Positions 30,434 to 35,240 of a DNA stretch of 64,000 bases are shown here, piece by piece. Source of the stretch: Botryobacter ruber (GTDB taxonomy: Bacteria > Bacteroidota > Bacteroidia > Cytophagales > Hymenobacteraceae). Where the stretch lies: assembly GCF_003347595.2 (NCBI RefSeq), contig NZ_QCZK02000053.1, positions 62,001 to 126,000 on the forward strand, written 5' to 3'. Position 1 is the first letter of the stretch. Every line of letters begins with the position of its first letter. The position numbers and the translations under genes were made by a program. The notes under the pieces were generated by a model. It saw only the letters and a list, made by a program, of their open reading frames with translations, had not been told where the DNA came from and did no database searches.

Positions 30434-30457
30434 GCACTCCCTACACAGGTTTTGCAC

Positions 30458-30493
30458 AAAAGAGGCTGTCCGAAAAAGGGCAGCCTCTTTTTT
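30458..30493 (+). terminator. Terminator of the Fur-peroxiredoxin unit
   Basis: AAAAGAGGCTG (30458-30468) pairs with CAGCCTCTTTT (30481-30491), followed by further T residues. 25 bp after the stop. Confidence 0.9.
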
Positions 30494-30513
30494 ATTTCTG
30501 ACCCTGCTGATGA

Positions 30514-30579
30514 GGAGCAGAGGCAATGGTGGCAGGTGCAGTAACATTCTGCTGCACCTGCCACCATTGCCTCTGCTCC
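30514..30579. repeat. Inverted pair of REP-like units forming a perfect 28-bp stem
   Basis: The reverse unit 30514-30541 and the forward unit 30552-30579 (within the 31-nt unit 30549-30579) are exact reverse complements over 28 nt, separated by 10 nt. Both carry the variant CCACCATTGCCTC in place of CCACCACAGCCTC, showing the two arms changed together. Located between the peroxiredoxin terminator and a convergent gene. Confidence 0.88.
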
Positions 30580-30621
30580 TGCAAGACTGCAGTATTGCCT
30601 GCATTGCAGTAGCAGCATCGG

Positions 30622-31494
30622 CTACAACTTCTTTTTCTCCCCCTTCTTCAGCTTGGTTATTTTAAAAATCACGCCTTCTTCGTTGCAAACCATCATGTCG
30701 GTGCTGTTTAGGAAAACAATTCCCTCCGATTTGCCCAGGCCTGGTATTTTAAGGCAGTTTACTTCTCCATTCGTAAAGTTATTCCTGCCATTCAGCTGCA
30801 GCAGGTATATTTCTTCATACCCCAGCAACGCCACTGTTTTTCCATCGGTGCTTATGTCGGCCGACGAGATCTTGGAATTGATTTGCAGGCTGTCGATGAG
30901 CTTTGCTTCGTGCTTACCAGGCAGGTCGGGCAGGCGGTATACCCGCACATAATCCTGGCACGTGCTGTTTTTGTTGAATAAATAAAGCTGCCCGTTGTGC
31001 CAGAAAAAGGCTTCGCAGTCGAACAGCTCACTGCCTTCTGCCGCCGGAAACTTCTTTTGATCTGAAAAGGTGAAGTGAATGACCTGGTGCGCCGCTTTGG
31101 GGTCGCTCTCACGCACTTTCACAATCCGCAGGTTCTGCCGGTCGCCCCCATTGTTGCCAAAGTCGCCAATGTAGAGGTTTCCCTTGTTGTCGTGCGCCAG
31201 GTCTTCCCAATCGTCGTTCTTCAGATCTTTCAACTCCAGCTTTGCCAGCAATTTCCCTTCTGGTGTTATTTTGGATAACTCTGCCCCCGTTGCGCTATCG
31301 CCATGCGTCCAGAGGTTGCCGTCGCTGGTAATCTCCAGCCCGGAGCTTTCGTTTATTTCATCGTGCATCTCCTGCCCCTGTTCCAGCACATACACCCCGA
31401 TTAACTCCTTGCATTTCGCCGGACATTCATTCACCTGGCTATAACCGGTAGCCAGTAAAAGTGAAAATAAAAATGTACTTATTAACCTTCCCAT
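30622..31494 (-). CDS. Secreted beta-propeller-like hypothetical protein
   Basis: 290 aa. Signal peptide (MGRLISTFLFSLLLATGYSQ), then repeated short beta units with Asp/Gly turns (SGLEITSDGNLWTHGDS, EDLAHDNKGNLYIGDFGNN, ADISTDGKTVALLGYEE). The pattern suggests a propeller of the SdiA-regulated/esterase-like type. No catalytic residues can be named. The C-terminus is Lys-rich (KKGEKKKL). It stands alone at the edge of the AT-rich island. Confidence 0.65.
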   Translation of the reverse strand: MGRLISTFLFSLLLATGYSQVNECPAKCKELIGVYVLEQGQEMHDEINESSGLEITSDGNLWTHGDSATGAELSKITPEGKLLAKLELKDLKNDDWEDLAHDNKGNLYIGDFGNNGGDRQNLRIVKVRESDPKAAHQVIHFTFSDQKKFPAAEGSELFDCEAFFWHNGQLYLFNKNSTCQDYVRVYRLPDLPGKHEAKLIDSLQINSKISSADISTDGKTVALLGYEEIYLLQLNGRNNFTNGEVNCLKIPGLGKSEGIVFLNSTDMMVCNEEGVIFKITKLKKGEKKKL

Positions 31495-31606
31495 AAATCA
31501 TCCCTCCATTTTTTTATAATTTCACAGGGTATTCTTTACGGTCTGAACGTAAGGAAGTTAGTAGCTGAGGCTACAGAATTTTCAGAAGAGGAGGTGGCGT
31601 TTGTTT

Positions 31607-31925
31607 TTATTTTAGGTCAAGAAGGTCAATTAATCCCCGGTTGACCTCTTGTATCTCAAAATCAGTTAGTTGCCCTAACTTCCCGATCACCAGTTCTTTG
31701 TCAATAGTCGTAATTTTGCTAAACGGATCAGGGAAGTCTTTTTGATTCCATTTTCTTTGGATGGCTCAAGTCTGACGTCAAATTTTTCTGCCACTTTAGC
31801 TGAGTAGTAATAAACGAAACAGTTATATCCTCATCAGAACCAAACAATACTAACGCAGGTCTGTTTTTTGTTCCTGTTAAATTTGTAAAAGGAAAAGGAA
31901 TTAGAACAAAGTCTTCCTTTTTCAT
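31607..31925 (-). pseudogene. PemK/MazF-type toxin gene with two single-base frameshifts
   Basis: The first 65 codons encode a PemK/MazF-like opening (KKEDFVLIPFPFTNLTGTKNRPALVL ... SFITTQLKWQK, here split by positions) and then run into a premature stop near 31728. Adding one base in the A-run around 31783-31787 restores DVRLEPSKENGIKKTSLIRL. Adding one near 31719-31721 restores SKITTIDKELVIGKLGQL and on to a stop at 31607-31609. The repaired product would be about 106 aa, the normal toxin length. Both lesions are single-base deletions, so the toxin is decayed unless the assembly is wrong. It overlaps the antitoxin gene by 4 nt. Confidence 0.8.
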
Positions 31926-32152
31926 TTGTAGCGCTCTTTCAGGTCCGATGCGGAATAGAGGTCTTCTTCATCCTCCAGGAACTTGAAAGATGTTGAATCC
32001 GCTGCTACCTGCTTAATTCCTTCTACTAAATTTCTATCCTCTAGCTTGTTCAAGAGGAATTCTGCAAAATCTGACACTTCTTTTAATTTTTGGTCAGGAA
32101 GCCTGGAGAGCCGATCTATCGTCTTTTGTATTAATATTTCTCTTGTCATCAC
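31922..32152 (-). CDS. Antitoxin-like protein paired with the PemK/MazF-type toxin
   Basis: 76 aa, helical and acidic (REILIQKTIDRLSRLPDQKL, VSDFAEFLLNKLED, then a C-terminal tail with FLEDEEDLYSASDLKERYK). This is the DUF2281-like antitoxin style in which the disordered tail would occupy the toxin. The stop overlaps the toxin start (ATGA), as in a translationally coupled antitoxin-toxin operon. It appears intact although the toxin is not. Confidence 0.68.
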   Translation of the reverse strand: MMTREILIQKTIDRLSRLPDQKLKEVSDFAEFLLNKLEDRNLVEGIKQVAADSTSFKFLEDEEDLYSASDLKERYK

Positions 32153-32228
32153 ATCAGCCTTTTTTCTAGTTAACGCATTTTTAAATCCATTTGTGCTGTC
32201 TAACCCTTTTTAGCTGTTGTGTGCTGTT

Positions 32229-33176
32229 TTATTCTTTTAGTCCTACCTGATTGTATCTTTCTTCAAGCACCTCTCTGTAAGCGATCTTCATATTATCAGA
32301 TAAAAATGAACGGTCTATCCAGCTTAGCGCTTCAGATTTATTCTTTACCATTCGGTTAAAAACCCTCTGTATTTGCTTATCCGTAAGCCCCAGCCCTGTA
32401 CCTAACTGCTCAAAGTGTTCTCGCTTCAACTTTTTTTTCTTACCTACTAAGCTGAGTGCCAGCTCTTCATCATCTTCAGGATTTACGATAGAAACATTCA
32501 GTAGATCATATGCAGGCGCTAATACCCAACCGGAAGGGCTTTCAATCATGGAGAAATTCTTCAGGTGCATATCATTATTTCCAGTAAGAAAGGAGAAAAG
32601 TGCCAATTCAAAATAGAAGATCTTATCCAGTAGCGTATTGCTAGAATAGCTTTCAAGTGCTTTTCCAATTCTTTCCATGGAGCTTTTATATTTATCGAAT
32701 GCCTCCGTGATCTGGAACATATCGAGCATATGGATCTTTTCTCCAGTTTCTGTCCGGTCTATACGTCTGGTTATATAGGAGAGTTCTCCCGAGGCCAGCC
32801 GGATCAAAGAAGAGGGTACAACCCGAATTCCGAAGCTTTCAGCTATTCGCATAGTTACGTGTTCATTTCCAGGCATTTCAGGAAACTGATCAGATGGAGG
32901 TTTAAAAATAAAATTACCTCCTAATGCACCAACTACAGTTAAACGAGCATCCGATTTTTCTTTGGTTTCTTTTACCAATGACATAGACAATTTCGCCTGA
33001 ACACCTGGTACCGCAACACTGCGTTCCACCACATTTTTCGCAAGCTCATCCATTTGGTCTAGCGAATATTCTATTAGTGGAGGTGTTGGAGTTCCAAAGA
33101 ACTCTAAAGAACATTTTTTATGAAAGTCATGTCCTGCTTCTACAGGCTCATAGCAATACAAGCACCTATTCTCCAT
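32229..33176 (-). CDS. HipT-like serine/threonine kinase toxin (HipA C-terminal part)
   Basis: 315 aa HipA-type kinase lacking the usual N-terminal subdomain, which is encoded by the gene before it. Opens with a small Cys/His cluster (CLYC...H..HKKC). Then the loop that carries autophosphorylation sites in this family, ERSVAVPGVQAKLS, the ATP-lysine region FIFKPP, the catalytic loop TGNNDMHLKNFS and metal-binding PAYDLLN. In the HipBST systems I know the Gly-loop has Ser residues where this one reads Ala and Pro, so its own phosphorylation control may differ. It overlaps the small subunit gene by 11 nt. Presumed target: a tRNA synthetase, by analogy only. Confidence 0.85.
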   Translation of the reverse strand: MENRCLYCYEPVEAGHDFHKKCSLEFFGTPTPPLIEYSLDQMDELAKNVVERSVAVPGVQAKLSMSLVKETKEKSDARLTVVGALGGNFIFKPPSDQFPEMPGNEHVTMRIAESFGIRVVPSSLIRLASGELSYITRRIDRTETGEKIHMLDMFQITEAFDKYKSSMERIGKALESYSSNTLLDKIFYFELALFSFLTGNNDMHLKNFSMIESPSGWVLAPAYDLLNVSIVNPEDDEELALSLVGKKKKLKREHFEQLGTGLGLTDKQIQRVFNRMVKNKSEALSWIDRSFLSDNMKIAYREVLEERYNQVGLKE

Positions 33177-33501
33177 CTACTTCTTGTATTGGTTCAACAC
33201 TTACAGCACCGATACAATTCTGACAACATGCCAGCAATAATCCCATTCGATCATTCCGATTTATTTTCCAACTTTCGGAAGCGATGTTCAATAACCACCC
33301 TTCAGGAATCAATCCTTCAAAAAATGGAAAAAGTCGTTTATCGGTATAGGGCTTATCTGTTACTGGCATTGTGAATGTAATAAAATCATTTGGATGCTCT
33401 TTCACATATTGCGCATTATACTGAAAAACATATTCACCTTCATTTGTCTCCGTAACGATGCCAGCCAAATGTTCTTTATAATACACCTTTCCGCGTCTCA
33501 T
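33166..33501 (-). CDS. HipS-like protein (HipA N-terminal subdomain)
   Basis: 111 aa, equivalent to the N-subdomain 1 of HipA encoded separately: GKVYYKEHLAGIVTETNEGEY, then ITFTMPVT, LFPFFEGLIPEGWLL, RMGLLLACCQNCIGAVSV. In HipBST systems this small protein, not HipB, acts as the antitoxin. Overlaps hipB by 4 nt (ATGA) and the kinase gene by 11 nt, giving strict coupling. Confidence 0.83.
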   Translation of the reverse strand: MRRGKVYYKEHLAGIVTETNEGEYVFQYNAQYVKEHPNDFITFTMPVTDKPYTDKRLFPFFEGLIPEGWLLNIASESWKINRNDRMGLLLACCQNCIGAVSVEPIQEVDGE

Positions 33502-33707
33502 TCACTCAAATCTTTCCTATTCACAGGAGCTAATTCATGCCCAAACATGCGGAGAACCAGGTTTACTTTATCCATATTCAGATTCGTTTTACCTTGTTCA
33601 ATTTTACGTATCACTGTTAATGCAACTCCTGCACGTTCAGCAAATTCTTCTTGAGTAAGATTAACTCCTTTTCTACGTTCTTTAACAAACTCTGCTAATT
33701 GTTTCAT
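33498..33707 (-). CDS. HipB-like XRE-family DNA-binding protein
   Basis: 69 aa, a single helix-turn-helix of the Cro/C1 type (about residues 8-62: VKERRKGVNLTQEEFAERAG, ALTVIRKIEQGKTNLNMDKV). First gene of the three-gene unit. Its start codon lies inside the first of four operator-like palindromes, fitting autorepression. Confidence 0.88.
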   Translation of the reverse strand: MKQLAEFVKERRKGVNLTQEEFAERAGVALTVIRKIEQGKTNLNMDKVNLVLRMFGHELAPVNRKDLSE

Positions 33708-33847
33708 TATATGCTTTAGAATATAACAATGTACGAAATTAATATATTATATTCAATTACATATAATAAACTTTAAGAACAGATAATTATATGTTTTAGC
33801 ATACACTCAAAAGATAATGCCTATATTATATTTTATAACATATAATA
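33707..33847. promoter_or_regulatory. Array of four N8-spaced palindromes, candidate HipB operators
   Basis: Sites: 33707-33726 (TTATAT-N8-ATATAA, overlapping the hipB start codon), 33745-33768 (TATTATAT-N8-ATATAATA), 33787-33806 (TTATAT-N8-ATACAC, imperfect) and 33824-33847 (TATTATAT-N8-ATATAATA). The centres are 40, 40 and 39 bp apart, close to but not exactly four helical turns. The promoter must lie within the array. E. coli HipB also uses palindromes with an 8-nt spacer and four operators, so the geometry matches the family. Confidence 0.75.
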
Positions 33848-34110
33848 CAGGCGTTAAATGGACTGTGACTGAATTTAAATTCTAACTTTACAACCTCACT
33901 ATTAAATGTTTTTCAAATTTTTATCAATGATTCTGTTAACGTTAGCAGGCAATATAAAAGAACTTTTCTTGGAGGAGTATGGTACGCAACGTTTCGCAGC
34001 TACCTAAAGGTGGCGATTTAAAAGCACTTCACTGTCAAACAAAGCACAGCCTTTGATAGAAACACAAGCCTTCACCTAACCACTTCACTGCCGCTTTCTG
34101 TTAGTTGCTG
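33848..34110. other. Intergenic region with a possible attC-like recombination site
   Basis: The part from 33981 to the stop at 34111 has features of an integron attC on the minus strand. It starts GGCTTATAACAGCAACTAAC across the stop codon and ends GAAACGTTGCGTACC; the inner parts GCAACTAAC...AAAG and GCAGCTACC...AAAG (reverse complement of the far end) are imperfect mirror images. CACTTCACTG occurs twice (34025, 34081). Nothing coding is seen in 33848-33980. Confidence 0.4.
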
Positions 34111-35085
34111 TTATAAGCCGTTTTTCTTTCGTCTTGCATTTTGTAAGCTGTCAACATAGTCGTTACTAAAGTCATTTAAGTTTTTCATGTCATTGTATGT
34201 GCCAACTGAAAGCCCTAAAAAAACTTTACTGTTATTGTCGTCTGAGCCACCCATGCCACCCATGGTTCCCATTGTCCCAGGATTAAAAACAGCTAAACTG
34301 TCTCGTGGTGGTTCATGGGGATTTTTTTCTGTTGTCCATTCCTCATTAAAATCTCTTGTGTCCAGCACGCCCAGTTTTCGTCTCTGTCCGTTTGGAGAAA
34401 TGTAATAGTATTCTTGATTGATTATTCCTTGTTCGTCTTTGAATTGAGTAAATAAAACTCCCGTTTGAGGTATTCTATAAATTCGTCTGCCATCTTCGTA
34501 TTCAGGTTTTTCTCCGTCTGATTGATTAAAAATGACAAGAACATTTCCTTTGTATCCTTCAGGAATTAAGTAAGTTTCCTTTTCAGGGCGTGTAAAATAT
34601 GAACTGGCAAAAGAAAATAAATACATACCGACAACCACAACAATTAAAGTCAATGGAAAAGATAGTAGTCCAAGTATGACCTTTGAAGTCTTTGGTTTTC
34701 CTGTCGGTTTTGGTAAACGCCAATCAAGAAATAGCAGTTGAAGAATAGAACCGCCAATCCATAAATAGAGAATTGGAATGCTAAAGGCACCAATCCACGG
34801 TCCCAATGCCAACGCAACACAATATGCCCAACCAAGTGAAAGCATAAAAGCAGTTAGAATGATAAAAACCAGCCGTAATAAGAATGAATTTACCCGAAAC
34901 AGATGTATGATTGTATTGCCTGTTACGCTAAGTCCAACTGCGAGTGGAACAGTCCAAAAAACAAAAGCATAAGTGTCACCTTTGCCAAACCAGTCTTGTC
35001 TGTATAATACAATTGTCACAGCAACCAAACATGTCAATATGTTTATTAGTCCGCTTAGAAGTTTTATAATAAATGGTCTGCTCAC
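34111..35085 (-). CDS. Multi-pass membrane protein with DUF6843-like domain
   Basis: 324 aa, GTG start at 35085. About five hydrophobic segments in residues 5-170, then a soluble domain beginning YLIPEGYKGNVLVIFNQSDG and containing IYRIPQTGVLFTQFKDEQG and INQEYYYI, which resembles DUF6843. The C-terminal tail is Gly/Met/Asn-rich. Base composition is lower in GC than the genes on either side. Flanked by sequence that could be a cassette boundary. Function unknown. Confidence 0.72.
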   Translation of the reverse strand: MSRPFIIKLLSGLINILTCLVAVTIVLYRQDWFGKGDTYAFVFWTVPLAVGLSVTGNTIIHLFRVNSFLLRLVFIILTAFMLSLGWAYCVALALGPWIGAFSIPILYLWIGGSILQLLFLDWRLPKPTGKPKTSKVILGLLSFPLTLIVVVVGMYLFSFASSYFTRPEKETYLIPEGYKGNVLVIFNQSDGEKPEYEDGRRIYRIPQTGVLFTQFKDEQGIINQEYYYISPNGQRRKLGVLDTRDFNEEWTTEKNPHEPPRDSLAVFNPGTMGTMGGMGGSDDNNSKVFLGLSVGTYNDMKNLNDFSNDYVDSLQNARRKKNGL

Positions 35086-35206
35086 TGTCGTCTTTTAAAA
35101 TGGCTTTTAACGATATTATATACCGCCCCCCTCCTTCCCCCTACCAAATATAACAGATAAACCGAATACTACAACCGCCTGCAGCCGCCAATCCCCGCCA
35201 AACCGC

Positions 35207-35214
35207 TATATTTG
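35207..35214 (+). promoter_or_regulatory. Candidate -7 promoter element for waaA-rsgA
   Basis: TATATTTG, exact TAnnTTTG match, followed by CAGCAC, 26 bp upstream of the TTG start. Confidence 0.5.
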
Positions 35215-35240
35215 CAGCACGAACCAAACACCTGTACCCT

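Follow-up and report, generated by a model that had tools for sequence, protein, structure and literature searches.

Operators of a HipBST system were first identified in Legionella pneumophila, according to the excerpts of PMC10653801 used here, and the excerpts of other papers give none for a further HipBST system, E. coli O127 included. In the same excerpts, Legionella HipB formed a HipT-HipB-DNA complex, the data were described as consistent with a HipS-HipT-HipB-DNA complex, and HipT mutated at its P-loop Ser retained toxicity. Homologues of this system (HipBST_Lp) are reported to be widespread in Fibrobacterota, Chlorobiota and Bacteroidota (excerpts of PMC10653801 and PMC9325769). For the HipBST of E. 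coli O127, the excerpted text of PMC10627512 describes Glu63 and Trp65 of HipS extending to the kinase active site region; an SxS motif with an autophosphorylated Ser lies beside the P-loop in many HipT proteins, but is not universal. A passage of a Caulobacter paper (PMC7029023) states that inverted-repeat intervals fit higher-order E. coli HipA-HipB-promoter structures. Thus, as far as that passage goes, assembly on spaced operators is not a new idea.

We analysed 64,000 nucleotides of Botryobacter ruber (contig NZ_QCZK02000053.1, positions 62,001 to 126,000; the window), which carry an operon that is a HipBST toxin-antitoxin of a kind common in Bacteroidota. On comparative sequence evidence, we consider it quite probable that this operon is autorepressed by HipB on palindromes, and that the fixed, clade-specific pitch of the palindromes comes from cooperating HipB-bound complexes.

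The hipBST operon and its surroundings

Three overlapping minus-strand open reading frames (33707-32229) lie in the order hipB-hipS-hipT.

33498-33707, minus strand: hipB, 69 aa, Xre/Cro-type helix-turn-helix; PF01381 (HTH_3), E 3.6e-11
33166-33501, minus strand: hipS, 111 aa, separate HipA N-subdomain 1; PF13657 (Couple_hipA), E 1.2e-24; TIGR03071, E 4.5e-27
32229-33176, minus strand: hipT, 315 aa, HipA-type core kinase; PF07804 (HipA_C), E 9.2e-43

The overlaps are 4 bp (hipB/hipS) and 11 bp (hipS/hipT). Gene order, Pfam domains and the nearest structures agree with the first-pass annotation that this is HipBST rather than HipBA. HipB scores 71.3 bits against NCBIfam TIGR03070 (couple_hipB), slightly below the cut-off of 71.65, and its recognition helix is GVALTVIRKIEQGK. 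The genome (5.84 Mb) contains one HipA_C match and one HipS match.

Relatives were collected by kinase and by HipS. A kinase-relative scan of named genomes gave 573 loci, of which the best 80 (kinases 67-82% identical) are the near loci referred to below. They are mostly from Bacteroidota (Echinicola, Fulvivirga, many Flavobacteriaceae, Saprospiraceae and others), with single MAGs labelled Delongbacteria, Balneolia and Chlorobiota. HipB is found upstream in 78 of the 80 and is 74-94% identical where present; L081 consists of the kinase only (contig start), L077 breaks off within hipS, and the hipB of L028 is truncated. Within the family of B. ruber, 53 of 204 genomes (its own included) contain a HipS relative, and the best 29 other loci serve as the own-family set. 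HipS searches found relatives in 92 of 395 genomes of the class and 85 of 395 of the phylum, sets that share part of their genomes; a second HipS query (L173) found them in 87 of 395 genomes, and 80 further stretches were added by hand for distant relatives. HipB proteins were sorted into classes A, B, C1, C2 and D by regular expressions of the recognition helix.

HipT is without N-subdomain 1, its HipA_C match starting at residue 56, and keeps the kinase motifs (P-loop AVPGVQAK, catalytic NNDMHLKN, and PAYDLLN); GN[NS]DMHLKN is present in all 81 near kinases, the window counted. At its N-terminus is a C-x2-C..H..C mini-domain, possibly a zinc knuckle. A loose version of this pattern occurs in 97/97 HipT of class A, 70/72 of B, 13/34 of C2, 0/27 of C1 and 0/7 of D. 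The AlphaFold model of HipT (mean pLDDT 72.2, pTM 0.76, below 50 at residues 54-63, 149-167, 228-235 and 241-243) plays no part in the evidence.

The P-loop positions of the window HipT hold no Ser; they read A-V-P, replacing the SIS phosphorylation motif. Among 97 class A proteins the first position is Ala in 64, Ser in 22 and Thr in 9 (2 were not matched by the pattern), and the second is Pro in 94. Since the P-loop Ser is absent from most class A proteins, phosphorylation control as in O127 HipT is unlikely in most members. The toxicity of Legionella HipT without this Ser indicates that its loss need not abolish activity. The PEGW motif of HipS aligns to PEGW of 7ab3_B (E. coli O127 HipS, PDB alignment) and, from this alignment, is taken to be the counterpart of E63 and W65. 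PEGW is present in 80/80 near HipS (window counted) and 29/29 own-family HipS; its Trp is missing from Legionella HipS, so the inhibitory Glu/Trp pair is not universal.

Comparison of GC content separates the operon from its neighbours. The hipBST genes, a DUF6843 gene and two downstream genes have a GC of 0.34-0.40, Fur, peroxiredoxin, kdtA and rsgA 0.50-0.56, and a 290-aa gene adjoining peroxiredoxin 0.49; with Fur and rsgA as exceptions, all of these are located from peroxiredoxin to kdtA, those two included. All 50 genomes of the genus (own included) contain kdtA, and the stretches upstream of it that were taken from 12 of the 49 others gave no tblastn match (1e-5) to hipB, hipS, hipT, DUF6843, the two downstream genes or the 290-aa gene. 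The peroxiredoxin-kdtA interval (30434-35240 in the window) is variable, at 1.3 to 8.1 kb in 10 of the 12 same-genus stretches; of the other two, L203 is cut by the contig start and L212 has no peroxiredoxin in 9.3 kb. Base composition and synteny suggest that the module is probably a recent arrival, acquired horizontally at a variable site. The stretch behind DUF6843 was considered as repeat-like and rejected, having a single place in the genome.

After hipT lies a second toxin-antitoxin-like pair (31600-32152, minus strand). Its antitoxin is DUF2281/VapB-like (76 aa, slightly below the Pfam cut-off), and the partner frame, which we take to resemble PemK/MazF, matched no family. This frame looks frameshifted, since it stops after 65 aa and open sequence runs on in other frames.

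Palindromic sites before hipB

Four palindromic sites precede hipB.

33707-33726, minus strand: operator O1, TTATAT-N8-ATATAA, 12/12; ends on the A of the hipB ATG
33747-33766, minus strand: operator O2, 12/12; extends to TATTATAT-N8-ATATAATA
33787-33806, minus strand: operator O3, 10/12; arms TTATAT and ATACAC, two mismatches
33826-33845, minus strand: operator O4, 12/12; an additional site, 39 bp from O3

The first-pass annotation had described four palindromes of the same design, the first overlapping the hipB start codon. The spacing (40, 40 and 39 bp centre to centre) and three exact sites bear this out, the overlap being one base, the A of ATG; the third site is imperfect. The window holds 8 matches with at most two mismatches against 1.86 expected, a count that none of 100 dinucleotide shuffles reached. 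O1, O2 and O4 are the only exact TTATAT-N8-ATATAA matches in the window and in the 5.84-Mb genome, where a backwards control pattern has one match per strand. With no further exact site in its own genome, the regulator looks local. The arms are A+T-only in an A+T-rich intergenic region, so single sites are weak evidence and the case rests on comparison. O4 also lies within a longer inverted repeat (33815-33856) with 21-bp arms that are 86% complementary and whose outer part contains G and C.

We compared the upstream regions of the window and of 75 related loci whose upstream DNA was long enough, counting a site at 10/12 or better within 2 bp of its position. Relative to the hipB start, sites are found at -9 in 70/76, at -49 in 70/76 and at -89 in 69/75 of these loci, which are not independent of each other. 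A site near -129 occurs in 4/74 upstreams, the window counted; three sites are usual and a fourth is rare, and four sites as the rule was rejected on these counts. There are 3.22 sites per upstream versus 0.40 in dinucleotide shuffles, and successive sites are 40 bp apart in 118 cases. The O1-O2 distance in 76 upstreams is 40 bp in 70, 41 in 3 and 29 in 1 (not found in 2); the O2-O3 distance in 74 is 40 bp in 66, 41 in 6 and 39 in 1 (not found in 1). Between O3 and O2 the sequence is weakly conserved (0.42 bits per column, versus 0.99 in O3 and 1.27 in O2) and the length is nearly fixed. In L007, L009 and L019 the whole array is shifted by 19, 19 and 5 bp with the 40-bp spacing kept, and in L067, L068 and L080 the first site is degenerate while those near -49 and -89 are kept. 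Related loci had been named beforehand as the place where the array might fail; palindromes and spacing are both kept there. One MAG locus (L008) has an internal stop in its kinase gene (1191-2135), yet carries three operator sites before hipB.

The best 29 other own-family loci have sites of a TTATACC-N6-GGTATAA type, spaced 41 bp (31 times), 40 bp (18 times), 42 bp (3 times) and at 7 other single distances. Scanning spacers with 7+7 arms, one mismatch allowed, revealed no sharp peak at N8 (N8 279, N6 288), since A+T repeats match in many registers; with exact 6+6 arms the near set peaks at N8 (139) and the own-family set at N6 (39, with N8 at 25). From these scans, the better description of the sites is a 20-bp operator, two 7-bp arms flanking a 6-bp centre (TTATATG-N6-CATATAA), and not the N8 form.

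Recognition helix and array pitch across HipBST clades

Comparison of the HipB proteins reveals that recognition helix and operator arms change together. HipB residues 29, 31, 32 and 35 are A, T, V and K in 78 of 79 near proteins, which go with TTATATG-type sites, and G, R, F and E/D in all 29 own-family proteins, which go with TTATACC-type sites. Thus, in helix and operators, the window operon resembles those of other families and not the 29 others from its own. Over the five classes the arms are TTATATG (A), TTATACC (B), AATCACA (C1), AAGTGCA (C2) and TTTACTG (D), all with a 6-bp centre. Each operator set fits its own class best in a cross-fit table that is partly circular, the class operators having been read from the same loci. 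The fit is weakest in C2 (10.7/14), where 11 of 37 loci are without a site scoring 10/14; L271 has C2 proteins as its tree neighbours.

Conservation with spacing, and arms that vary together with the HipB helix, argue that the palindromes are probably operators. They also bear on the idea that a different regulator, or a nucleoid protein preferring curved A+T-rich DNA, uses the sites, as the A+T-only arms and the A+T-rich intergenic region might suggest. The sites accompany hipBST in related loci, have no further exact copy in the genome, and vary with the HipB helix even in versions that contain G and C; we give this idea a slim chance.

We then measured array pitch by motif-free self-similarity, comparing 20-mers, direct and reverse complement, at distances of 15 to 109 against 30 mononucleotide shuffles per upstream. 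Of 275 loci 13 were unusable; the remaining 262 include repeated places, and 250 upstreams were left after removal of identical ones. The ORF rule gave a wrong or missing hipB in several loci (e.g. L103, L135, L141, L160, L166-L168, L170 and L266), which stay in the counts, mostly as non-significant or in the class 'other' (15 loci). All 30 shuffles were beaten in 211 of the 250 upstreams, with a pitch of 39-42 or 79-83 (the 40 bin) in 154, 60-62 in 40, 70-72 in 10 and elsewhere in 7; the other 39 had no array beating all shuffles. By class the upstreams divide as follows.

Class A (98): 85 in the 40 bin, 2 off, 11 non-significant; mean pitch 40.0 bp
Class B (75): 67 in the 40 bin, 2 off, 6 non-significant; mean 40.6 bp
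Class C1 (22): 20 at 60-62, 2 non-significant; mean 61.3 bp
Class C2 (33): 19 at 60-62, 3 at 70-72, 1 at 42, 2 off, 8 non-significant
Class D (7): 5 at 70-71, 1 off, 1 non-significant; mean 70.8 bp
Unclassed (15): 1, 1 and 2 in the 40, 60-62 and 70-72 bins, 11 non-significant

Array pitch goes with the hipBST clade, and in many bacteria operons that are close relatives space their sites at a nearly constant distance. In a quick FastTree of 237 HipT, made with long-branch warnings, class A (support 99) and class D (100) each fall on one side of a branch, and pitch needs 4 changes. Three own-family loci of a C2 subclade (L243, L270 and L273) show 70-71 bp, longer by roughly one helical turn than the 61 of their class.

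Among 273 random flank windows, taken as a control, 13 beat their shuffles, 12 of them elsewhere, 1 at 71 and none in the 40 bin; the best distance, significant or not, fell in the 40 bin in 24 of 273. Chance, or an artefact of duplication in A+T-rich DNA, could be read from the likeness of O1 to O3 and of O2 to O4, at 80 and 79 bp. The same lattice in 70 of 76 related upstreams with diverged gaps, and the empty 40 bin among the random windows that beat shuffles, refute this by comparison and leave it practically no chance.

A proposed model of repression and comparison with known systems

A candidate promoter box lies among the operators.

33734-33741, minus strand: TAATTTCG, probable -7 promoter box in the O2-O1 gap

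The TAnnTTYG box before O1 is presumably the Bacteroidota -7 element. Of 76 upstreams, 56 have it 15 bp before O1 and 4 have it 14 bp before; in the other 16 the gap contains none. O2, O3 and O4 are upstream of this putative box and would not be transcribed from it. This counts against the palindromes working as RNA hairpins in the leader, as do their A+T-only arms; inverted repeats could fold, and we regard hairpins as very improbable, slightly more so than another regulator.

A weightier alternative is that HipB binds the sites independently, the even spacing resulting from promoter geometry, with O1 over the start and O2 over an upstream element, and from ancestry. The excerpts of PMC10653801 include a suggestion by the Legionella authors of partly occupied arrays, unlike the cooperative HipB of E. 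coli. In our data, class A often has TAnnTTnG at 15 bp from O1 (68/98), as independent sites would allow. The same distance is the commonest in class C (12/24 in C1, 8/23 in C2), yet the pitch is 40 in A and about 61 in C. Moreover, O2 and O3 keep their 40 bp with no promoter box between them, and the C2 subclade L243, L270 and L273 stands at 70-71. Class B has the box at -5 in 13 of 67 and lacks it in 47, and class D has none in 6/6; with boxes so scarce, B and D add little on promoter geometry. The O2-O3 distance and the box distance shared by A and C argue against promoter geometry as the cause of pitch, and we judge independent binding unlikely, while giving it real weight. Pitch is probably set by the complex, because the box-to-O1 distance is shared despite differing pitch, O2-O3 lacks a box, and pitch follows the HipB/HipT clade.

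We therefore return to repression by cooperating complexes, for which we propose the following steps. HipB dimers would bind the 20-bp palindromes before hipB and repress the operon; O1, which touches the hipB start codon, would cover the point where the transcript is expected to start, and O2 would sit just upstream of the -7 box. HipS would keep the kinase HipT, the presumed toxin, inactive via the Glu-Gly-Trp motif. Complexes, probably HipB2S2T2, would lie on nearly the same DNA face in a rigid, helically phased array, and may cooperate by contact or in some other way. The HipB:HipS:HipT ratio would then govern repression, which would ease as complexes fall apart. DNA bending or looping, instead of contact between complexes, could also give a fixed pitch.

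A further reading is that pitch is an inherited, discrete property of about 40, 61 or 71 bp that changes in whole-turn jumps, with complexes stacked on one DNA face and the array serving, like a ruler, as a template for assembly through which the antitoxin:toxin ratio is read. The difference between 61.3 and 40.0 bp is two helical turns and that between 70.8 and 61.3 about one; this phase argument is post hoc, and the independent changes behind it are few (4 by the HipT tree). By arithmetic, Legionella at 71 and E. coli at 39 fall near the same helical phase as the class means, and E. coli at 28 fits less well. We offer the ruler as a speculation that we would sooner doubt than accept.

Comparison with E. 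coli K-12 HipBA shows an Xre-type HipB and four N8 palindromes before hipB in both. The K-12 sites (TATCC-N8-GGATA at -125, -97, -58 and -30 in NC_000913) are spaced unevenly at 28/39/28, and the window operon has neither their TATCC half-site nor an unsplit, fused HipA. The earlier suggestion of an E. coli-like geometry thus keeps its N8 and its number four; it was rejected on the spacing of the NC_000913 sites, and four is not typical of the loci studied here. The hipBA spacing of E. coli is not a general rule. E. coli O127 HipBST shares the tripartite order, PEGW in HipS and a core kinase with a short N-terminal mini-domain (excerpts of PMC10627512 and PMC6581861); its HipT is distant (E 1.1e-18 to 7ab3) and has SIS where the window HipT has AVP.

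Legionella HipBST is the nearest solved system. HipT matches Legionella HipT (8ezr) at E 3.6e-41, then O127 HipT, then HipA, and HipS matches Legionella at E 2.7e-14 and O127 at 5.1e-11; these are E values against solved structures, and the HipT tree is without a Legionella sequence. The class C kinase L173 is likewise nearer Legionella, so this nearness does not separate classes. No Bacteroidota hipBST operator array was found among the matches listed in the open-access literature, and what is added here is an evenly pitched, clade-specific operator array in hipBST of Bacteroidota. About 200 loci with conserved pitch and matched helix and arm changes provide candidate HipB-DNA specificity pairs, and the conserved pitch makes it possible to test directly for the assembly of HipB complexes into higher-order arrays that repress. 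Legionella shares the hipB-hipS-hipT order and, in the excerpts of PMC10653801, three operators at even spacing, to which HipB bound in EMSA. Its operators, 18 nt long and separated by 53 bp (centre-to-centre sum 71 bp), differ from the 20-bp sites and 40-bp pitch of the window, and its HipT has a single P-loop Ser (SVQ/SIQ) in contrast to AVP (PMC10653801, same excerpts).
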